A DNA stretch of 47,995 nt. It comes from a virus. A model generated the notes under the pieces. It saw only the letters and a program-made list of their open reading frames with translations, was not told the DNA's origin and searched no databases. The translations under genes were made by a program, and so were the position numbers. Numbering within the stretch: the stretch's first letter is position 1; every line of letters begins with the position of its first letter. The stretch is from IMG/VR virus record IMGVR_UViG_3300038856_000020, positions 1 to 47,995 of that record, one strand, 5' to 3'. Positions 4,829-20,054 of the stretch are shown piece after piece.

Positions 4829-5131
4829 ATGTCCATACTCTTCCGTGCATCTAACATGCACGAAGCACAACAACTCTATCGCAGTCTGCGAGAAGCAGAG
4901 AGGTGGGAGAAGGACGTAAGCAAGCATAGGACTGAACTCCTCAGACAATGTAACAGACTGATGTTCGGACAGCACAGAGGTGATGGGTCTTGGCGAACCA
5001 TCATCGACTTCCCCTATCTCACACCCACCCTCAAGCAAACTGTCATCACTGGTATGTTCTCAACTCTTACAGACCATCAGCAAGAACTACGCAATCAGCT
5101 AATCCTGTTAGGAGTGGACCATTCATCATGA
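4829..5131 (+). CDS. Hypothetical helical protein (100 aa)
   Basis: GAGGTGAG precedes ATG 4829. Residues 8-45 form a charged helix (HEAQQLYRSLREAERWEKD). No family recognised. The end (VDHSS, stop) overlaps the next ATG through TCATCATGA. The same junction sequence recurs before the gene at 5655. Confidence 0.65.
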   Translation: MSILFRASNMHEAQQLYRSLREAERWEKDVSKHRTELLRQCNRLMFGQHRGDGSWRTIIDFPYLTPTLKQTVITGMFSTLTDHQQELRNQLILLGVDHSS

Positions 5132-5607
5132 ATACATACATCACCAAGACTGCCTTCCCTTTATACAACCTGCTGAACATACATAGCAACGAACCCTATG
5201 TTCTCATTTCATGTCTCTCATCCAGAGAGTTCCGAGATGTAGAGGAGAGGTTCAACATGTTCAAGTCTGGCTCCTCATCTCGAAACATGATTGAGCACCT
5301 CACTCTACAGTTCCACGACTGTGAACCAAACAAGACTGTGGATGGTGTGCCTGTCAAGTTCGGAAACTTAGAATTCTTCTCTGAAGAGCACGCACACAAG
5401 ATTCTCACCCTTCATGAGAAAATGATAGATACCGGTATAAACAGACTCTACGTCCACTGTTGGGATGGAGTGTCTCGCAGCCCTGCTGTGTGTGCTGCAC
5501 TTGATAACATAGAGGGTAAACCAGACGACCATTGGTTTAAGAATTACTCACCTAATCCATATGTATATCGTACACTCATCGAAACCTACTACAAAATTGT
5601 GAGTTAG
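5128..5607 (+). CDS. Tyrosine/dual-specificity phosphatase-like protein
   Basis: A 159-residue protein carrying the protein-tyrosine-phosphatase signature HCWDGVSRS, with Cys111 as nucleophile and Arg117 as phosphate-binding residue (C-X5-R). Asp64 in FHD could be the general acid. The length matches small dual-specificity phosphatases. It may dephosphorylate host proteins or a phosphorylated small molecule; the substrate cannot be read from sequence. ATG 5128 overlaps the previous stop. An upstream in-frame start at 4990 is rejected because it lies inside the preceding gene. It opens the enzyme-rich cluster at 5.1-12.4 kb. Confidence 0.8.
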   Translation: MNTYITKTAFPLYNLLNIHSNEPYVLISCLSSREFRDVEERFNMFKSGSSSRNMIEHLTLQFHDCEPNKTVDGVPVKFGNLEFFSEEHAHKILTLHEKMIDTGINRLYVHCWDGVSRSPAVCAALDNIEGKPDDHWFKNYSPNPYVYRTLIETYYKIVS

Positions 5608-6051: not shown

Positions 6052-6462
6052 ATGATGAAGCAGAACCTTTTTGTTTACGGCACGCTTAAGAGCGGTGAGT
6101 GTAACAACTTGTTCCTCAGAGACCAGGACTTCCTCGGAGAAGCAGTATCAGTCAAGAAATTCTTGCTCGAAGATTGTGGAGTGCCATGTCTGTGCCCCTA
6201 TGACTGTGCCAGAAACAGAAGGGTACAGAGGAAAGCAGGATACATCAAGGGTGAACTGTGGAGTGTGGGCAGGGTAGCCATGCGTCCTATCGACAGGTTG
6301 GAAGGTAATTATGTTCCTCTGATCAGCAGGTTCAGACTTGAGAGTGGTGTGGTGAAGACTGCTCTTGTTTACACCATGATGAATTGGAACCTCACCGATG
6401 ATGATGGATGTCAAACACCTGACGAAAATGGAATACTTGAGTGGAGCTGGAGGAGAAGATGA
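6052..6462 (+). CDS. Gamma-glutamylcyclotransferase-like (AIG2/GGCT) protein
   Basis: A 136-residue protein starting with FVYGTLKSG, the substrate-binding loop typical of the gamma-glutamylcyclotransferase/AIG2 fold. It continues with GYIKGELW and IDRLEGNY, which match the family strand and the Glu-containing helix near the active site. The known reaction releases 5-oxoproline from gamma-glutamyl amines or peptides. ATG 6052 was chosen; ATG 6055 and GTG 6040 are alternatives. It lies upstream of amidoligase and amidotransferase genes, an association known for this family in phages. Confidence 0.8.
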   Translation: MMKQNLFVYGTLKSGECNNLFLRDQDFLGEAVSVKKFLLEDCGVPCLCPYDCARNRRVQRKAGYIKGELWSVGRVAMRPIDRLEGNYVPLISRFRLESGVVKTALVYTMMNWNLTDDDGCQTPDENGILEWSWRRR

Positions 6463-6542
6463 TTGTCTCAATCACTGCCGGTACTGTGGTTCTCGTCGTC
6501 ACTGTCATTATCATGAACCTTCACCGCCTGGTGAAGAAGTAA
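6459..6542 (+). CDS. Membrane micropeptide (27 aa)
   Basis: ATG 6459 overlaps the previous stop, with AGGAG immediately upstream. Residues 2-19 are hydrophobic (IVSITAGTVVLVVTVIIM), followed by a basic end. Probably one transmembrane helix. Function unknown. Confidence 0.5.
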   Translation: MIVSITAGTVVLVVTVIIMNLHRLVKK

Positions 6543-6567
6543 TCCGAACAGAAGGAAACTTATCAAC

Positions 6568-7071
6568 ATGAAAACCAATCAATTCTACGGCCACAAGCTT
6601 CCCGAAGAGCCTGTCAACATCTTCGAGAAGTACGGTCCTATCAACGGGTATGACCTGTTCGAAACTTATAACAGCTATAGTGTAGACAACAGGAAAGCTG
6701 AACTTGGTATCAAGTTGGACAGTACTGAAGCAGACTCCAGTGGTCCTGTTGAATTTTACAAGTCCGTCTTGCTTCGACTGAGCAACGACATCCAACGAAT
6801 TCGAGATGTATTCTTACGCACTCCTCATGAGTTGAGGCAAGGATGGATGGTCGAGACTGTCGCTGGTAAGATGTGGATTTACAAGACCTTTGATGTGGCC
6901 AAGAATCCACCAAAGATTGCACACTCTCTCCCCGTCAGACACGAAGGCAAGACGCATCTCATCTGTCTCGATGAGAACTTGGTTCCTGTTCATCCTGTCA
7001 ACTTGACACATCATGATCACGTCAGATGTTTGCTTGATCTTTACCGCCACATCGCTCTTAATTCACTCTGA
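6568..7071 (+). CDS. Hypothetical protein (167 aa)
   Basis: A soluble protein of mixed alpha/beta character with a His-rich stretch near the end (LTHHDHVR). No recognised motif. ATG 6568 follows GAAGGAAAC. It sits between the cyclotransferase and tRNA-Arg and ends nine bases before the tRNA. Confidence 0.65.
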   Translation: MKTNQFYGHKLPEEPVNIFEKYGPINGYDLFETYNSYSVDNRKAELGIKLDSTEADSSGPVEFYKSVLLRLSNDIQRIRDVFLRTPHELRQGWMVETVAGKMWIYKTFDVAKNPPKIAHSLPVRHEGKTHLICLDENLVPVHPVNLTHHDHVRCLLDLYRHIALNSL

Positions 7072-7079
7072 ATTACTCA

Positions 7080-7156
7080 GTCCCTGTAGCTCAATTGGAT
7101 AGAGCAGTGGACTTCTAATCCACAGGTTACAGGTTCGAGTCCTGTCAGGGACGCCA
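7080..7156 (+). tRNA. tRNA-Arg(UCU)
   Basis: A complete cloverleaf: acceptor GTCCCTG/CAGGGAC, anticodon stem GTGGA/TCCAC, loop CTTCTAA with anticodon TCT at 7114-7116, a TTCGAGT T-loop, and an encoded CCA end. It reads AGA, a codon used heavily throughout this phage, so it probably supplements the host. Confidence 0.97.
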
Positions 7157-7189
7157 TTGTTGCTTCTTCTTTGTTGTTGGAGAAAGAAA

Positions 7190-8044
7190 ATGCCCAGCTA
7201 TGGTATTGAATATGAAATTCCAGGGACAAGACAGAACGCAATCTCTTCCATGAATCGAGGAGACTACGAAGAACTGTCTAAAGTCTTCGACTTTGGGGAA
7301 GACTTCGACTGTTGTGAGTTCAGGAGTAAGATATCTAACTCATTCAAGCAAGCTTCCAACAAAATGGAGGCTATGCTTTCAATGACTGAGAAGTACAAAC
7401 GTCATCCTTTGTTTACCCCAAGAGGAGATCTTGGTATTCACATCCACATTGGGATGCAGTCGTTCGACAATGAAAGAAGATTGGGTCGTCTGCTCATGTT
7501 CCTCAACGATCAGAAAGATAAGGAAAGAGCAGACAACTTCTTCAAACTAAGTGGAAGAATAGTATATCACGGGTACTATATGAATGCGAAACCCAGTCTG
7601 TTTGCTTATAAAATAGGCAACTATCTTGTCCTGAATGGGAGACAATACAACCTACACAAAGGCAGTAGACTGAGTAGTCGTGAAAGAGAAAACAAATATG
7701 AGTTACCAGACAAGACACCCTTCTATAAATTTTACACAGAAAGCAGTGTTAACAAGAAATCATACTGGTTGCCAAATTATGGAAGAAATTGCATTCTCGC
7801 GCCCAATTACTTAGGCACCCTTGAGCTTCGTATGTTTGCAAGTGATCCCAAGAGATTACTGCCCGCCTTGCAATTCGCAGAAGCCTTGCGTGAATTCAGT
7901 TATGAATTGAAGCATATCACACCAACCCCAACCTACCATCACTGGTACTCCTTCGTCAGTAGCTTTGATAAGTATAAGGATTTGATCAAGCTGTGTGAAG
8001 ACGAGGAGGTTTCACCCAAAAGGAGTAAGAAACATGCCGCGTAA
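7190..8044 (+). CDS. Amidoligase family protein A (284 aa)
   Basis: This has the pattern of the COOH-NH2 ligase (amidoligase, glutamine-synthetase-like) family. The first strand carries paired acids (YGIEYEI, Glu7 and Glu9), then CCEFRSK (Glu43), GIHIHIGM (His84 and His86) and TLELRMFAS (Glu212 and Arg214), followed by a helical end. These enzymes use ATP to join a carboxylate and an amine as an amide or peptide bond. ATG 7190 follows TTGGAG; an upstream start at 7157 would lie directly against the tRNA and is rejected. The substrate is unknown. Confidence 0.8.
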   Translation: MPSYGIEYEIPGTRQNAISSMNRGDYEELSKVFDFGEDFDCCEFRSKISNSFKQASNKMEAMLSMTEKYKRHPLFTPRGDLGIHIHIGMQSFDNERRLGRLLMFLNDQKDKERADNFFKLSGRIVYHGYYMNAKPSLFAYKIGNYLVLNGRQYNLHKGSRLSSRERENKYELPDKTPFYKFYTESSVNKKSYWLPNYGRNCILAPNYLGTLELRMFASDPKRLLPALQFAEALREFSYELKHITPTPTYHHWYSFVSSFDKYKDLIKLCEDEEVSPKRSKKHAA

Positions 8045-8264
8045 AAACCTCGATGTCAATCACATCGTTGTCAAGGTGAGACGAGATGAACTGGTTGAAC
8101 TCATCAAACATAACCTCAACGAAGCAATGTCGTTTGTGGACGAACACAAGTTCGACGCTGATCATCTGAAGACATTCAACTTCCTTCAGGCAAGAGCTAA
8201 TACATATGCTGAAGCTCTGTCTCGGAGAGTGGAAAAGCGTCTCAAGAAAGATTCGGCTGCCTGA
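8034..8264 (+). CDS. Hypothetical protein between two amidoligase genes (76 aa)
   Basis: ATG 8034 follows AAAAGGAG and overlaps the previous stop by 11 bases, so it is probably translationally coupled. The product is basic and helical, ending KKDSAA. No family recognised. Its position between two amidoligase genes makes it a candidate partner or acceptor substrate, but this rests on location only. Confidence 0.65.
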   Translation: MPRKNLDVNHIVVKVRRDELVELIKHNLNEAMSFVDEHKFDADHLKTFNFLQARANTYAEALSRRVEKRLKKDSAA

Positions 8265-8303
8265 AAGAGCAGGTAGAAACCCAAAGAAGGGAGGGTGTTC
8301 ACC

Positions 8304-10145
8304 ATGTTGATGGACTCAGTTCCTTATGAAGACCACGGTCCGTTCAGGGTCTATCAAACAGCACACAACAATCTGAATGTGTGGTTTCACCCTGACTTAA
8401 CAGTCAAGATGTTGAGCGAGTTCGGTTCATCATTGATTGAAAGATACCACACAGAGGGAATCCCAATAACTTGGGAGAACAACAACATAGTTGGATTCTT
8501 CTGTGCTTGCTTTCATCTAGTAGAAAACAGAAAGAATCTGACGGCCTATCTTAAGAGTCAAGGTTTCACCCTCACTGAGTTTATATTTCTACTCAGAGAT
8601 AAACCAGTAAATATGCTTACAGTGCCGAAAGCAAGATGGCTGGAGTTTCGTAACACACGAATGGAACTGACATCCATTAGTATTAATGTCATGATCGGAC
8701 ACGGTAGCGCAATCTCCCTGAAACACATAAAGACTCATCTTGACAGCAAGGTGATAAACACGTGTGGATATACTGGAACATACAAGAACACTCATGAAAT
8801 ATTCAACACACATATTTATTACTTTGTTCCTGCTCGTAACACACTGTTGAATGATTCAACCATACCACCTCATCACAGAAACTTTATCTGTCCAAACTGT
8901 AGTACTATATTAAAGAACTACACTCAACTCGTTGAGATAATCGAGCGAGATGTATTAATAAGATACAAATGCGCTCACTGTATGGGAAGAGAATTACGAG
9001 AACAAGTCCAAGAACCTGGGCCTGGCTCCTTCTTGAAGAAACTTGTTTATCCTCTTGTTAAGTCAGTTCCTCACAAGATTCTAAACTACACCGCAGACCC
9101 AATGAGATATGCAGAAGGATTCTTGTTAGGTAAGAATGAAATACAACAGAGGGTAAGAAGTAGAGATGTGACTTGCTACCTGGGTGTTGAGTTCGAGGTA
9201 ACATTCCCAACAATATCTTCAAGTGATAGGCTGTCTATCTTCTACAAGGATGTGATTGAATCGCTCAACAACACTGCCATATTAAAGTACGATTCTTCTG
9301 TTGGTTTCACCGAGAACAGGGAGCCAATACCTAATGTCATGGGCTTTGAAATAACATCCGTTCCGATGACATTCAAGAAACAACGGGAAGTGTGGAAACC
9401 ATTCTTTGAAAAGTTTGGAAGCAAGTTATTGGTTGATAAACATCCTTCAGGTATTCATGTTCACGTCAGCAAGAATGCCTTTACCAACTTCAATAGACAG
9501 AAGCTCCACTACTTCATGAACCGCGAAGTCAACAGAGAGTTCATGCTTCTCATCTCAGAGAGGAAGGAAGAACACTTCACCAAGTGGTGTCGTACAAACT
9601 ACGTCAAACTGGACAGAAGAACAGGCCGCAACTCACAACACGATTCAAATGGAAACATTACCAAGTATAGGGTGGTGTACACCAGACCTTATACTGAAGA
9701 GTTTCGATTGTTCAATGCTGTCAAGAAGTATGAACTCTTCATGAAGAACCTTGAGTTCATCATGGCAGTCAAACAATTCACTGAAGAACAGAGCATGAGG
9801 CTCTTGGATTACCGAAGCTTCGTTGAGTGGGTAGGCCAAAGAGGATTTACGTATCCCAATCTTTGTGACTTCCTGTTTGGAAAGGGACTCATCAATCGGA
9901 AGGGTGAAGTACAGATAAGCAAATCTTCTGTTGACAAGATGATTAACATGGAAGCTGAGAGATACGCTCACCTGAAGAACAAGCTAAAGAAAAAGACTGC
10001 TTCACCTTATCGGTCTCCGGAATATGTCAGAGACTACTTCCCAGAAAGAGACCCATCCCTCACAATAGCTTCTACTTCACCTTTCAGAGAGACAGTTAGA
10101 GAATTCTATACAACACCCCTAACGACCACACTCAGAAGAGGTTAA
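8304..10145 (+). CDS. Amidoligase family protein B with zinc-ribbon-containing N-terminal half (613 aa)
   Basis: Residues 1-190 are an unrecognised domain. Next comes a CPNC...CAHC zinc ribbon (Cys196, 199, 223, 226) and then an amidoligase domain at about 290-510. Its marks are YLGVEFEV (Glu296, Glu298), GFEITS (Glu349), GIHVHVS (His385, His387) and EEFRLFN (Glu466, Arg468). A basic tail follows. The core resembles protein A, but the protein is more than twice as long. The N-terminal half may select the acceptor or bind nucleic acid. ATG 8304 follows GGGAGG with nine bases between; a GTG at 8295 is less likely. The next gene starts two bases after its stop. Confidence 0.78.
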   Translation: MLMDSVPYEDHGPFRVYQTAHNNLNVWFHPDLTVKMLSEFGSSLIERYHTEGIPITWENNNIVGFFCACFHLVENRKNLTAYLKSQGFTLTEFIFLLRDKPVNMLTVPKARWLEFRNTRMELTSISINVMIGHGSAISLKHIKTHLDSKVINTCGYTGTYKNTHEIFNTHIYYFVPARNTLLNDSTIPPHHRNFICPNCSTILKNYTQLVEIIERDVLIRYKCAHCMGRELREQVQEPGPGSFLKKLVYPLVKSVPHKILNYTADPMRYAEGFLLGKNEIQQRVRSRDVTCYLGVEFEVTFPTISSSDRLSIFYKDVIESLNNTAILKYDSSVGFTENREPIPNVMGFEITSVPMTFKKQREVWKPFFEKFGSKLLVDKHPSGIHVHVSKNAFTNFNRQKLHYFMNREVNREFMLLISERKEEHFTKWCRTNYVKLDRRTGRNSQHDSNGNITKYRVVYTRPYTEEFRLFNAVKKYELFMKNLEFIMAVKQFTEEQSMRLLDYRSFVEWVGQRGFTYPNLCDFLFGKGLINRKGEVQISKSSVDKMINMEAERYAHLKNKLKKKTASPYRSPEYVRDYFPERDPSLTIASTSPFRETVREFYTTPLTTTLRRG

Positions 10146-10147
10146 AC

Positions 10148-11017
10148 ATGTGTGTCATCATATACAAACCAGCATCCATCACATTCCCGAAGCAAGACAT
10201 CGAAGCTGCACTACACCACAACAGCGATGGCTTCGGTTATATGTTCGTGGATGACGGTAGAGTCCTGACATCAAGAACAACCAAAATTGGTGCTGATGAA
10301 ATCATGGGTATCTTCAAGCAGAACATGAAGAAAGATACCTTCTATCACCTGAGACATAGAACTCATGGTGATGTGAGTGAGGAGAACTGCCATCCATTTG
10401 AAGTGATGAACAAGGAGCAACATGGTGTTGACTTGTTCATGATGCACAACGGAACAATACCCAAGTTTGGTTCGAATGCTGGTGGAAAGAGCGACACCTT
10501 GGACTACATTGAACAAGTTCTCCAACCTATACTTCAAGAGAACCCAAAGCTATTGTTTAATACAAGTTTCCAGAAACACATGTTGCTTCCGTCTATCGGT
10601 GGGTGGTCTCGTATCGCTTTCCTGAACAGTGAAGGAGAACAACTGATAGTCAGGAAGGAAGACGGTAAGACAAGACACGGTTGTTGGGTCAGTAATGACA
10701 GTTATTTTTCCCTCCCCCAGAACCAACCTTGGCGAGTTTACAATCAGAGTGGGCAAGATGGTGGACAGGGGGGTACTTCCTATAGTGGCAAGGGTTACTG
10801 GAAAGGTAACAAGTTCACACCTCAAAGCAACGTAACACACATAAACCATAAAGGTAAGAAAGATGAACGTAAACTTCAAGGTCTCGGGCTTTCACAGATT
10901 ACTGAGGATGAACTCAAATTTGCTACGAGAGCCGAGATTCTCCTCATCGCTATTCACGAACCCCACGAACTTGCAAACATTGTCTTCGATCTCCTACATC
11001 CCGGAGAAGCTGGGTAA
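10148..11017 (+). CDS. Class II glutamine amidotransferase (289 aa)
   Basis: An N-terminal-nucleophile amidohydrolase: MCVIIYKP places Cys2 at the new N-terminus after Met removal. The family motifs NSDGFGYM (25-32), HLRHRTHG (67-74) and MMHNGTI (98-104) follow. It should hydrolyse glutamine to release ammonia or act on a related amide. No synthase domain is fused; residues about 200-289 are a Gly-rich linker and a charged end. Being two bases downstream of amidoligase B suggests it feeds ammonia to, or edits the product of, that ligase. Confidence 0.88.
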   Translation: MCVIIYKPASITFPKQDIEAALHHNSDGFGYMFVDDGRVLTSRTTKIGADEIMGIFKQNMKKDTFYHLRHRTHGDVSEENCHPFEVMNKEQHGVDLFMMHNGTIPKFGSNAGGKSDTLDYIEQVLQPILQENPKLLFNTSFQKHMLLPSIGGWSRIAFLNSEGEQLIVRKEDGKTRHGCWVSNDSYFSLPQNQPWRVYNQSGQDGGQGGTSYSGKGYWKGNKFTPQSNVTHINHKGKKDERKLQGLGLSQITEDELKFATRAEILLIAIHEPHELANIVFDLLHPGEAG

Positions 11018-11039
11018 AGCTCTACAAATCTCAGACTTC

Positions 11040-11588
11040 GTGAAGAGGAAGGCTTCAAACAGGAGCTACTACACTCCTGACTTTCCTTACTTCATGGAAA
11101 AAGGATATAACTATGTGTTCCTGTTTCTCTACGCACCACTGAGATACGAAAGAGAAATATTCAGTGTGGCTAAGGAGCACGGAGAATTCATCGGATACGC
11201 AGAGACAGTATCTTCCACATTCAAGATGATGTGCTTCTATGATGAAAAGACAGACATAAGATATGGTGGAGTATACCACGCATCGGCCAACAACAATCAG
11301 ATTAATCACGGTGCTCTGGATACAGGACGTATAAGCGGTAGAGTCTTCAGAATACCTGTTGACAAGCTGTATGAAGTTGACAAGGTGGCAATGAACCAGA
11401 TGTCCTTTGAACGTTCGATCATCAACATCAGGATGTTCGACAAGAAGCAAGAAAGAGATGCCGCATACTGGTACATTGTTAAACCTCATCACTGGTATGA
11501 TCACAAGAACAGAAAAGACAGAGGGTATAAGATGTACAGAAAAAGTCAAGGAGCTAATCTCTTCTGGGAAGAGAGAAATACTGGTTGA
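11040..11588 (+). CDS. Divergent cyclotransferase-fold (GGCT-like) protein
   Basis: The segment YVFLFLYAPLRYEREIF followed by GEFIGYAETVSS resembles the start of gamma-glutamylcyclotransferase-fold proteins, where Y-G-T-L-R has become Y-A-P-L-R. GRVFRIPVDKLYEVD and a last strand AAYWYIV also fit the fold. It is a remote match, and the altered loop may mean a changed activity. The start is uncertain: GTG 11040 leaves 22 bases after the previous gene, and ATG 11094 begins right at the fold. Neither has a clear ribosome site. It lies downstream of the amidotransferase. Confidence 0.5.
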   Translation: MKRKASNRSYYTPDFPYFMEKGYNYVFLFLYAPLRYEREIFSVAKEHGEFIGYAETVSSTFKMMCFYDEKTDIRYGGVYHASANNNQINHGALDTGRISGRVFRIPVDKLYEVDKVAMNQMSFERSIINIRMFDKKQERDAAYWYIVKPHHWYDHKNRKDRGYKMYRKSQGANLFWEERNTG

Positions 11589-11613
11589 CATTCACCAAAT
11601 TATGTGATATAAT
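11585..11613 (+). promoter_or_regulatory. Consensus sigma-70 promoter
   Basis: TTGACA (11585-11590), 17 bp and TATAAT (11608-11613) with TGA before the -10 make a perfect extended host promoter. It overlaps the end of the previous gene and drives the zinc-ribbon gene, amidoligase C and the primase-helicase. Confidence 0.88.
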
Positions 11614-11633
11614 AAGAAGAAAAGGAAGTAAAC

Positions 11634-11849
11634 ATGAGGTGTCACATTTGCAACACGAGGCTTGAAAGCAATGAAATTAAGAGGAATAAGGATACGAATA
11701 AATATGAGCCGTGCCGTACGTGCATCGAAATCAGTGAACGTACCTACAGCTCTGACTTTGAAGAAGATACGCTTCACACGGTAGATGCTGAGGACTTCTT
11801 TAACTCAAGAGCAGAAAAGGAAACAGGACATGTTAAGGTTTGGATTTGA
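11634..11849 (+). CDS. Small zinc-ribbon protein (71 aa)
   Basis: CHIC (Cys3, Cys6) and CRTC (Cys27, Cys30) form a likely treble-clef or zinc-ribbon knuckle, followed by an acidic tail. AAGGAAG precedes ATG. It is the first gene behind the consensus promoter and overlaps amidoligase C by 20 bases. It may be a binding partner of that protein, much as amidoligase B carries its own zinc ribbon. Function otherwise unknown. Confidence 0.65.
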   Translation: MRCHICNTRLESNEIKRNKDTNKYEPCRTCIEISERTYSSDFEEDTLHTVDAEDFFNSRAEKETGHVKVWI

Positions 11850-12438
11850 GTTAGAGGGATTTTATCACGCAGGAACAGAAAATATTACAGTTCCTCCAAA
11901 GGAATACCCCAGAGATTCTTTTCCCGGGTTAGTGGAAATAAGAACCTCAGGAGGTAAATCCCTGGAACTTTCTTATATGGAACTCCTATATAAGGCATCT
12001 CAATATATCTCAACAACTTCTTTTTCCAAGGTATCACATGTTTTCTCTGGAAACGAATTGAGACAGATAAGGCAAGTTCATTTTGAGAAAGGAGGACTTA
12101 AGATAGAAAATATTTACGGAAAACCACCAAGGTTATTGGGAAATAAAATCTTAGCATCCCTCCAGATAAATATTTCAGACCTTCACACCGATTCCTATAG
12201 AGACTGTAGAGGGACATTAACTCCTGCATCTTATGGGTTATTCGACTTTGTATCAATAATAAGAAATTTAGACGAAGAGTTTAAACAAGAAATAAAGGAA
12301 AGTAACAGACAACCAGGGTTCTATTGTATAAAGGATGGATATCGGCTAGAATACAGAAGTCTTCCCAACTCAGTATTTTCACCTGACATTACTTCTGGCA
12401 ATGAGTTCCTAGACAGAGTAAGAAAGTGCTACAAATAA
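11830..12438 (+). CDS. Amidoligase-like protein C with altered active site (202 aa)
   Basis: Retains the family acids in FGFELEG (Glu7, Glu9), LVEIRTS (Glu36, Arg38) and RLEYRS (Glu174, Arg176). The histidine pair of the HIHIG block is replaced by LQINIS (Gln112, Asn114). Short for the family and AT-rich compared with neighbouring genes. It may be a catalytically weakened or regulatory paralogue, or a ligase with different metal binding. ATG 11830 follows AAAGGAAAC; the upstream start at 11785 lies deep in the zinc-ribbon gene and is rejected. Confidence 0.6.
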   Translation: MLRFGFELEGFYHAGTENITVPPKEYPRDSFPGLVEIRTSGGKSLELSYMELLYKASQYISTTSFSKVSHVFSGNELRQIRQVHFEKGGLKIENIYGKPPRLLGNKILASLQINISDLHTDSYRDCRGTLTPASYGLFDFVSIIRNLDEEFKQEIKESNRQPGFYCIKDGYRLEYRSLPNSVFSPDITSGNEFLDRVRKCYK

Positions 12439-14045
12439 AAAAGATAAAGAGAAGAGCTTGCCCTCAGTGTCCGTCGAGTGACGGGTATGTTACGTGGGAA
12501 GATGGGAACAGTTATTGTTTTGTTTGTGGATTTAAACCAAGACAGCTTCAAGGGAAGCAGATGACAGAAGAAAAAGAAAATACACTCCCAAGAGGAGAGT
12601 TCATAGAGCTAACAGATAGACGTATACCTTTGGAAGTATGCATGAGGTATGGTGTTACCTGTGAGACTGATGACAATGGTAACACAGTCAAGCACTTTTA
12701 TCCTTACTCTTCCAACAGAACAGGAGAGATTGTTGCGGTCAAGACCAGGCTAACAGATGTTAAAGCTTTCTATTGGACAGGAACTCAACAACATCTGGGA
12801 TTATTTGGACAACAGTTGTTCCCTTCCGGAGGAACAAAGAGGATAACCGTAGTTGAAGGAGAACTCGATGCGCTTGCTGTTGCAACTATTAACGATGGTG
12901 GGGATTGGCCTGTTGTTAGTGTCCGTAGTAGTTCATCCGCTTCGTCAGATATCAGAAACAATCTCCAGTATCTCCTCCAGTATGAAGAAATCTACCTCTG
13001 CTTCGACGGAGACACAGCCGGGAGAAAAGCAACGGAAGAGGTAGCTTCTCTCCTACCTATTGAGAAGACCTTCATTGTCAGACTGGATGAAGGAAAGGAC
13101 CCTTGCGATTATCTGAAGGAACGAAGAGAGCAGGAATTCAGACGTGCTTTCTTCAGGGCTGAGAGGTATTCACCTGAAGATATCTTTGTCCTCACCAAGG
13201 ACAAGGCTACTGAAATCCTGAAAGAACACAAGAACAAGGAGAGTTACACGCTCCCGTTCGAAGACATCCAAGACAAGATGCAAGGACTTCGGCTGGAAGA
13301 AATGACACTAATCACTGCGGACCCTAAGGTTGGTAAGAGTGAGTACGTCAGGGAGATTGAATACTATCTCATTGACGTATTGGTAAGAATAGATCACATC
13401 ACCGAGGGATCGAGGAAGATTGGTATCATCCACATCGAAGACCCAAGGGACAGGACAATCCTATCCTTGGCAAGTAAGGCTGTTAACAAACCATTCCTCG
13501 AATTCGTTAAAGGTGATCAAGCTCTCATCGAGAAGGGTATTGAACTCATCACCAAGGATGAGAAGTTGGTTATGTTGGACAGACAAGGTAGCTTCGAGCC
13601 TGAGGAGTTACTCAACAAAGCAAGATATCTGAGACTATCTCATGATTGCAGAGTCATTGTGTTTGACAATCTGAGTATGCTCTTCTCAGGTAGAGGAGAG
13701 AAGGAAGAACCTAAAGCTATAGCAAAACTTGTCACTGACTTGAAGATCATGGCTAAAGAACTAGGCTTTCATGTTATCATGATTGCCCACTTGAACGATG
13801 ATGGTAAGACGCTCGGTAGCAGAGCACCTATGAGAGTGACGGATAACTGGATTAACTTGGAGAGGGACATAGAGAACCCTGACCCTGATATCAGGAGAGT
13901 GATCAGAACTTCCTTGAAGTATTGTCGTTACACAGGTGACACTGGTCCTTCAGGAAGTGTTTGGTTAAATCCTGACACAGGGAGACTGGAGAAGTACGTT
14001 TACCCGTTCGAGTTTGGAGAGGAAGACAATGGCCAAGAGAGTTGA
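12426..14045 (+). CDS. Primase-helicase, T7 gp4-like (539 aa)
   Basis: Has an N-terminal zinc-binding primase domain (Cys12, Cys15, Cys31, Cys34), a TOPRIM domain with EGELDA (Glu144) and FDGDTAG (Asp194, Asp196), and a DnaB-type helicase with Walker A DPKVGKS (about 299-305) and Walker B VIVFDN. It unwinds the fork and makes primers. It starts at GTG 12426, overlapping the amidoligase C end by 13 bases. The only ATG downstream would remove the zinc domain. Length is close to T7 gp4. Confidence 0.93.
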   Translation: MLQIKKIKRRACPQCPSSDGYVTWEDGNSYCFVCGFKPRQLQGKQMTEEKENTLPRGEFIELTDRRIPLEVCMRYGVTCETDDNGNTVKHFYPYSSNRTGEIVAVKTRLTDVKAFYWTGTQQHLGLFGQQLFPSGGTKRITVVEGELDALAVATINDGGDWPVVSVRSSSSASSDIRNNLQYLLQYEEIYLCFDGDTAGRKATEEVASLLPIEKTFIVRLDEGKDPCDYLKERREQEFRRAFFRAERYSPEDIFVLTKDKATEILKEHKNKESYTLPFEDIQDKMQGLRLEEMTLITADPKVGKSEYVREIEYYLIDVLVRIDHITEGSRKIGIIHIEDPRDRTILSLASKAVNKPFLEFVKGDQALIEKGIELITKDEKLVMLDRQGSFEPEELLNKARYLRLSHDCRVIVFDNLSMLFSGRGEKEEPKAIAKLVTDLKIMAKELGFHVIMIAHLNDDGKTLGSRAPMRVTDNWINLERDIENPDPDIRRVIRTSLKYCRYTGDTGPSGSVWLNPDTGRLEKYVYPFEFGEEDNGQES

Positions 14046-19098: not shown

Positions 19099-19423
19099 GG
19101 TGGAAGAAACTGGTCCTATTCGGGTGTTTGATGAAGAACAATCCTCAGCCCTTCTTCGCTCTCTGGTTGGAGATATCCTCATCTCTCTGAATATAGCGAA
19201 AGAGTTTTACGTTGTTCTGGCTGATCTGGAACTCGATCTGGAGTCCTATCCGAATATCAACGAAGCAATGGCCCAGTTCGAAACCTTCATTCAAAACAAG
19301 GACCCCGAATGGTGGGAATGGTACCAAGAGACAATGGGCGAGGACCCCGCTGAAGAAGGTGAGGTTGCTCAGATCGAAGACAAAAGTGAAGAAAGGGCAG
19401 AGAGTGAAAACAAAGACGCTTGA
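19079..19423 (+). CDS. Acidic hypothetical protein (114 aa)
   Basis: CAGGAGG precedes the ATG. Very acidic, especially the last 30 residues. No Cys, no membrane segment. A DNA-mimic role is possible because of the charge, but no motif supports it. It overlaps both the exonuclease and the glycosylase-like gene. Confidence 0.65.
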   Translation: MATEVSKVEETGPIRVFDEEQSSALLRSLVGDILISLNIAKEFYVVLADLELDLESYPNINEAMAQFETFIQNKDPEWWEWYQETMGEDPAEEGEVAQIEDKSEERAESENKDA

Positions 19424-20054
19424 AGACGCTGATAAATTTACTCTCGATGAGTTGAGGGATCAGATGGTTTGTCATTGCAGGCCAACTTTTCCCTTGACTT
19501 CCGAAGAAGATTGTGGGATACTAATAGTAGGAGAAGCTCCAGGAACAGAGGAGTTCAAGACAGGACTACCCTTCTCTTCTAACGGGAAGAACGCAGGTAG
19601 TGTGTTGAACGATTGCTTGCAAGATGCTGGAGTCTTAACTTCTTCGGTAAGCATTACCAATGTCTTTCTGGAGAGACCACCGAGTAACAATGTGAGCAGA
19701 TTCTTCACGGATGAGAAGCAAAAAGGAACAGAACATCTGGGAACATTCAAGGGCAGGTATCTTCTTCCTTCCATGTACCCTCATGTGTTGTTTCTCAACA
19801 AGTTAATCACTGAAGTTGTTAAACCCAAGGTGATTGTGAGTTTAGGTAACATACCTTTGTGGTTCTTTACTGGACAAGATTGCGGTGTTACCCGTAAAGT
19901 TGGGACAACAGATATCATTAATGGTATTCCTGTAGTCTTCACCTTTCACCCTGCTGCTGTGTTGTGGGGCAACAGAAAGATGCAGATGAAAGGACAGATA
20001 ACAGAAGCATTTGTTTTAGCATATGAAAAAATTCAACAACAAAAAGAAGGGTAA
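19404..20054 (+). CDS. Uracil-DNA glycosylase superfamily protein (216 aa)
   Basis: ILIVGEAPGTEEFKTGLPFSSNGKNAG matches motif 1 and the following loop of family 4/5 uracil-DNA glycosylases, and FTFHPAAVL matches their C-terminal His motif. It probably removes uracil or damaged bases from DNA. The four iron-sulfur cysteines of family 4 are not clearly present. GTG 19404 is the likely start because it overlaps the previous gene modestly; ATG 19464 would cut off 20 residues. Confidence 0.82.
   Translation: MKTKTLEDADKFTLDELRDQMVCHCRPTFPLTSEEDCGILIVGEAPGTEEFKTGLPFSSNGKNAGSVLNDCLQDAGVLTSSVSITNVFLERPPSNNVSRFFTDEKQKGTEHLGTFKGRYLLPSMYPHVLFLNKLITEVVKPKVIVSLGNIPLWFFTGQDCGVTRKVGTTDIINGIPVVFTFHPAAVLWGNRKMQMKGQITEAFVLAYEKIQQQKEG

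Follow-up and report, generated by a model that had tools for sequence, protein, structure and literature searches.

The stretch of viral DNA analysed here, referred to as the window, comprises all 47,995 nucleotides of IMG/VR record IMGVR_UViG_3300038856_000020, a virus contig carrying an exact 127-bp terminal repeat. Between positions 6,052 and 12,438 it holds a gene cluster that an original prediction, made from the letters and a list of open reading frames (ORFs), had read as three amidoligases, a class II glutamine amidotransferase (GATase) and two proteins of the gamma-glutamyl cyclotransferase (GGCT) fold. The ORFs were present at the predicted positions (Table 1), and genes are named below by their start positions.

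Table 1. Features of the gene cluster and its downstream boundary; enzyme genes are given first, other features below them.
Feature	Coordinates	Strand	Basis or remark
Gamma-glutamyl cyclotransferase (GGACT/AIG2-like), predicted	6052..6462	+	Pfam PF06094, PHROG 2520, phage GGCT profiles, motifs
Amidoligase_2-type, glutamine-synthetase-like ligase, 284 amino acids (aa), predicted	7190..8044	+	Profile, aligned motif columns, AlphaFold/Foldseek
Amidoligase_2 ligase, predicted; ligase domain preceded by a zinc-ribbon-like CxxC...CxxC segment	8304..10145	+	Profile, phmmer, alignment
Class II (N-terminal nucleophile, Ntn) GATase, Cys2 nucleophile, predicted	10148..11017	+	Pfam PF13230, catalytic columns
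Probable third glutamine-synthetase-like carboxylate-amine ligase	11830..12438	+	GFELE, EIR, QIN (HxH position), EYRSLPN; homologue; motif order
Hypothetical protein, 167 aa	6568..7071	+	No match to any family or to profiles of the remaining cassette genes
tRNA-Arg (TCT) within the cassette	7080..7156	+	ARAGORN; Rfam tRNA, 74.7 bits
Small ORF overlapping the 3' end of 7190-8044	8034..8264	+	AAAAGGAG ahead of ATG 8034
Hypothetical protein	11040..11588	+	Start uncertain (10863, 11040 or 11094); no family match
Small CxxC-type ORF, 71 aa	11634..11849	+	No significant family match
DNA primase/helicase	12426..14045	+	PHROG 239, E 2.3e-130; directly downstream, cassette boundary

Two genes separated by a 2-bp gap, 8304 and 10148, place an Amidoligase_2-type ligase next to a GATase. 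The 10148 product matched Pfam PF13230 above the cutoff (E 2.8e-6), begins with Met-Cys and contains the motifs THG-x5-NCHPF, HNG and SDT; its catalytic residues were invariant across 7 aligned phage proteins, bearing out the proposed Cys2 nucleophile and making the assignment as a class II GATase with intact catalytic residues a solid one. The 8304 product fell below the cutoff for Pfam Amidoligase_2 (E 0.009). A profile built from some 120 phage relatives gave it E 1.6e-40, a value that is partly circular because the profile was seeded with the product's own core. Independent support came from phmmer matches down to 4e-14, and the GxExE, HxH and ExR motifs were all in place, so that 8304 is likewise a solid prediction of an Amidoligase_2-type ligase with all motif residues. 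In the alignment, the CxxC..CxxC segment ahead of its ligase domain was common to MW202733, MEP402 and Marvin. Scanning IMG/VR for close relatives with the ORF starting at 8295 returned nothing; the predicted start at 8304 was upheld over this longest-ORF start because GGGAGG sits directly ahead of 8295.

A second Amidoligase_2-type ligase is solidly predicted at 7190, whose product retains every motif residue (G5-x-E7-x-E9, E43, H84-x-H86, R123 and E212-x-R214) in alignment with the invariant catalytic columns. The protein gave no Pfam match, and neither a close-relative scan of IMG/VR nor tblastn in phages returned anything; against the phage amidoligase profile used for 8304, from whose construction it had been left out, it scored E 1.4e-13, with an hhalign probability of 97%. 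An AlphaFold model based on an alignment with 51 amidoligases was of moderate quality (predicted local distance difference test, pLDDT, 66; predicted template modelling score, pTM, 0.66). Its viral Foldseek matches were amidoligases (probability 1.00), and its best PDB match was a weak one to glutamine synthetase (E 0.04). This structural agreement amounts to consistency rather than proof, because the alignment had already supplied the family.

Of the two proposed cyclotransferases, one held. The 6052 product matched Pfam GGACT PF06094 above the cutoff (E 3.7e-10), aligned with phage GGCT profiles (hhalign 97%) and PHROG 2520, and carries YGTL and DRLEG motifs, including the catalytic Glu motif, which makes it a solid gamma-glutamyl cyclotransferase prediction. 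The 11040 product, in turn, had no match in Pfam, PHROGs, PDB sequences or the cassette profiles, the D-x-x-E motif of GGCT was not found in it, and a motif scan for relatives yielded none; a cyclotransferase identity is not supported for this protein by these sequence-level comparisons, which a very divergent fold could have escaped.

The remaining ligase candidate, 11830, is probably a third glutamine-synthetase-like ligase. Its GFELE, EIR, QIN and EYR motifs follow the order and rough spacing of the ligase motifs, with QxN standing where HxH is expected; HxH is thus present in two of the three proposed ligases, 7190 and 8304, as predicted. The pattern GxExE..E..[HQ]x[HN]..ExR matched exactly 3 of the 184 window ORFs, namely 7190, 8304 and 11830, and per 20,000 shuffles it matched 0 times for 11830, 11 times for 7190 and 33 times for the 8295 ORF, a result that is suggestive only because the pattern was written after the sequences had been seen. 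No significant match to ligase profiles was obtained and Pfam was negative for PF14395; the best profile match of 11830 and its homologue was the COOH-NH2 ligase at 53%, a weak hit limited to 31 columns at the EYRSLPN stretch, and an AlphaFold model (pLDDT 32.5) was too low in confidence to show a fold. No profile or structure search placed any of the three products outside the glutamine-synthetase-like fold, although for 11830 the low-confidence model speaks neither way; 7190 and 8304 stand as Amidoligase_2-type ligases on profile and motifs, and 11830 as a probable glutamine-synthetase-like ligase.

Searching IMG/VR with a 27-base motif from 11830 brought up its single homologue, in a 170-kb phage (L143:5947-6606, minus strand; E about 5e-49, 51% identity), and this homologue conserves the motifs. 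This phage also has GGCT, two class II GATases, ATP-grasp, C26 hydrolase and COOH-NH2 ligase (hhalign 97%) genes, but roughly 11 to 21 kb separate them from the homologue, which stands outside the cassette there; Amidoligase_2 was not found in it. Since both the window and the 170-kb phage have them, GATase and GGCT accompany the 11830-type gene in two of two genomes, a small number. No further relatives came from the close-relative scan of IMG/VR, from tblastn in phages or from alignment-based scans, and two stretches returned by a second motif scan proved unrelated. By eye, the 170-kb phage shows a reverse-transcriptase-like YVDD motif in L147:5650-7212 (minus strand), between a GATase gene and the C26 hydrolase gene, and, near the homologue (L143/L146), look-alikes of RtcB, two RNA ligases, a nicotinamide phosphoribosyltransferase and an NMN adenylyltransferase-Nudix protein.

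The window terminase is 59-64% identical to Lentibacter, Celeribacter and Roseobacter phage and oyster Cobavirinae phage terminases, and the structural genes match podophage families; on these matches we treat the window as a Zobellviridae-like podophage, a marine-type bacteriophage. The association of amidoligase, amidotransferase and cyclotransferase genes in phages, cited in the original prediction, was recovered in LUZ24, phiEco32 and the Zobellviridae cassettes examined: in these and in UFV-P2, equivalent families adjoin the primase/helicase, and the whole or partial gene set also occurs in MW202697 and in Proteus, Vibrio, crAss-like and Rhizobium phages. The window cluster lies directly upstream of its own primase/helicase in the same way, with 6052 as its GGCT-or-C26-hydrolase gene. 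Judged by gene families and their position, it is a divergent member of the LUZ24/phiEco32-type amide-ligation cassette, and the proposal of a phage gene set for amide or gamma-glutamyl chemistry is borne out at this level.

The conserved pairing was quantified in 120 loci that a GATase DNA motif had picked out of IMG/VR. The GATase neighboured an amidoligase in 113 of them, an adjacency that was not built in because the motif selected GATases, not amidoligases. Two amidoligase matches beside the GATase were found in five of the 120, among which L017 and L065 look like one sequence and L044 is likely a split gene; its tandem ORFs of 145 and 135 aa (L044:4915-5800) resemble one gene broken by a frameshift or sequencing error. 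All 14 COOH-NH2-ligase cassettes with flanking sequence have a GGCT and/or a peptidase-C26 gamma-glutamyl-type hydrolase, which suggests gamma-glutamyl removal as a needed step; the LUZ24-type COOH-NH2 ligase alone had matches in 317 phage records. In T5S1-k141_653015, a Cobavirinae relative by terminase, the replication genes are preceded by CobS/CobT-annotated genes instead. Many cassettes carry an uncharacterised 190-aa family between the COOH-NH2 ligase and the amidoligase (L142:6805-7395, L129:7804-8421 and relatives), and most have one or two hypervariable proteins of 280-400 aa beside the ligase genes (L127, L129, L134, L137, L139), with almost no shared sequence. Profile comparison rejected the idea that all these hypervariable proteins of about 300 aa are ligases, save for two from StenR_269.

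We consider it fairly probable, by analogy, that the cassette draws on glutamine to amidate or ligate a carboxylate, that GGCT clears a gamma-glutamyl intermediate, and that the target is a host molecule early in infection. The GATase 10148 would hydrolyse glutamine, and its partner amidoligase 8304 would amidate a carboxylate with that ammonia, or another amine, at the expense of ATP. Additional amide or gamma-glutamyl bonds, also ATP-dependent, may be formed by 7190, and probably 11830, which would fill the roles held by the COOH-NH2 ligase and ATP-grasp in other phages, while GGCT 6052 would take off the gamma-glutamyl group as 5-oxoproline. Such chemistry would resemble the gamma-glutamyl protection known from PuuA/PuuD in polyamine catabolism and from BtrJ/BtrG in butirosin synthesis. 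Position and analogy suggest an early role for the cassette, with a host protein, a peptide of the cell envelope or a small metabolite as possible substrate. Mass spectrometry of kuravirus SU10 picked up homologues of the ATP-grasp, GATase and GGCT (YtfP/UPF0131), which are classed there among the early gene products (PMC4281155), and we infer early expression in the window phage from this parallel.

Several observations weigh against this interpretation. One profile of phage cassette ATP-grasps found none in the window, nor did the 190-aa family that accompanies the ligases elsewhere (represented by gp85 in phiEco32) turn up there; the cassette may thus be rewired or degenerate. In 11830, QxN stands in place of HxH and no significant profile match was obtained, and 11040, 6568 and the small ORFs stay unexplained by the cassette chemistry. 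The compared cassettes are not independent samples because they were chosen as similarity matches, and the literature searched yielded neither a function for these cassettes nor an assayed member.

Among alternative targets, modification of the host cell wall or envelope, by amidation of or amino-acid ligation to peptidoglycan stem peptides and with a block of superinfection as the result, is possible but unlikely. An envelope and superinfection role was suggested for phiEco32, a proposal that PMC10580990 credits to Iyer et al. 2009, and glutamine-fed peptidoglycan amidation is known in bacteria from MurT/GatD (PMC3267633). However, nothing in the window was recognised as a transporter, a Mur ligase or a signal for envelope targeting, the hosts of phages with amidoligase and GATase include mycobacteria as well as Gram-negative groups whose walls differ, and no experiment on such a role was found in the literature searched.

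It is doubtful that proteins of host or phage are the target and receive glutamyl or other amino-acid tags from the cassette, in the manner of RimK or Pup ligase. ATP-grasp members of related phages are annotated as S6 glutaminyl transferase, and the PDB matches of the 7190 model include Dop, a Pup ligase relative, at a non-significant E of 0.13; yet no ATP-grasp was found in the window, and neither a protease nor a protein that could serve as tag was recognised there. To the same degree we doubt that 11830 is no ligase and 7190 a decayed paralogue, leaving only the 8304-10148 pair and GGCT functional. This reading would fit the lack of a significant family match and of HxH in 11830 and the failure of 7190 in Pfam, but not the conservation of 11830 motifs in a distant phage at 51% identity, nor the intact motif residues of 7190.

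DNA base hypermodification, in which an amide-linked group assembled on phage DNA or transferred to it would protect it from restriction, appears improbable. The cassette adjoins replication genes, and Gordonclarkvirinae, the phiEco32 group, are reported to be remarkably resistant to restriction-modification with no known modification pathway (PMC11990801); phiEco32 carries the cassette, and its COOH-NH2 ligase is also present in the group members Bas90 and Bas92. CmoY (PMC12783734) is an example of a phage amide ligase that works on a DNA base, but this enzyme is an asparagine-synthetase homologue of a different fold. RsaI, HpaI, EcoRV, SmaI and HaeIII all cut the DNA of phage tf (PMC3517423), whose annotation lists an amidoligase and a GATase. 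The window proteins scanned included none recognised as a base hydroxylase, DNA methyltransferase or carboxymethyltransferase, and the BASEL authors propose deoxyuracil for the Gordonclarkvirinae instead, in a text that, when searched, made no mention of amidoligase or ATP-grasp (PMC11990801). The link between cassette and restriction resistance is correlative, a phenotype seen in one group that bears the cassette; if true, DNA modification by the cassette would explain phiEco32-group resistance, and the phenotype offers a concrete test. A novel amide- or amino-acid-linked phage DNA modification, made here by glutamine-synthetase-like ligases only and with 11830 founding a new family that lacks HxH, is more improbable still.

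Outside the cassette, a dual-specificity-phosphatase-like protein with an HCWDGVSR (CX5R) motif (PHROG 5614) is encoded just upstream at 5125-5607 (plus strand), and the replication module holds a uracil-DNA-glycosylase superfamily protein at 19212-20054 (plus strand, E 1.1e-14). Defence-system models gave nothing convincing on the window. The tRNA-Arg (TCT) inside the cassette has a counterpart in the StenR_269 cassette (L005:5643-5800) and was not conserved in the other cassettes checked.

Compared with known systems, the ligase number that had been called striking is ordinary: three carbon-nitrogen ligases are the usual complement in LUZ24 and phiEco32, and StenR_269 has three amidoligase-like proteins plus an ATP-grasp. 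It is the apparent absence of ATP-grasp that stands out; in LUZ24 and phiEco32 the complement consists of COOH-NH2 ligase, amidoligase and ATP-grasp. LUZ24 and UFV-P2 (LUZ24 gp14-gp23) resemble the window in placing Amidoligase_2, class II GATase and GGCT before the primase/helicase, together with a COOH-NH2 ligase to which 11830 is only weakly similar. They add ATP-grasp and the 190-aa gp17 family, neither of which was found in the window, whereas the window has two Amidoligase_2 proteins and a different GGCT/ligase order. The phiEco32 cassette (gp77-gp88) shares the enzyme families adjoining the primase/helicase and differs in its ATP-grasp, a much longer GATase (676 aa) and its host group. 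The cassettes of the Zobellviridae phages Klyazma, HP1, all-k141_1748665, KZY1 and Vibrio 1.208 agree in broad phage group, gene set and location, yet have a PF14395 COOH-NH2 ligase, ATP-grasp and, in some, a C26 hydrolase. StenR_269 likewise combines several amidoligase-like paralogues with GATase, GGCT and the internal tRNA-Arg, but has ATP-grasp and two GATases. The nearest annotated-phage relatives of 8304 and 10148, in Methylophilales MEP401/402 and Manatee Spring MW202733, pair a zinc-ribbon-like amidoligase with a class II GATase and, unlike the window, show only the pair in the stretches examined, with no GGCT or extra ligase annotated. CmoY, the DNA 5cxmC-glycine ligase, is of asparagine-synthetase type and works with CmoA/CmoX, none of which was recognised in the window (PMC12783734). 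What appears distinctive here is a set in which no ATP-grasp was found and two ligases, probably three, are glutamine-synthetase-like. Such a version narrows the shared core of these cassettes to an amidoligase, a GATase and a gamma-glutamyl remover.

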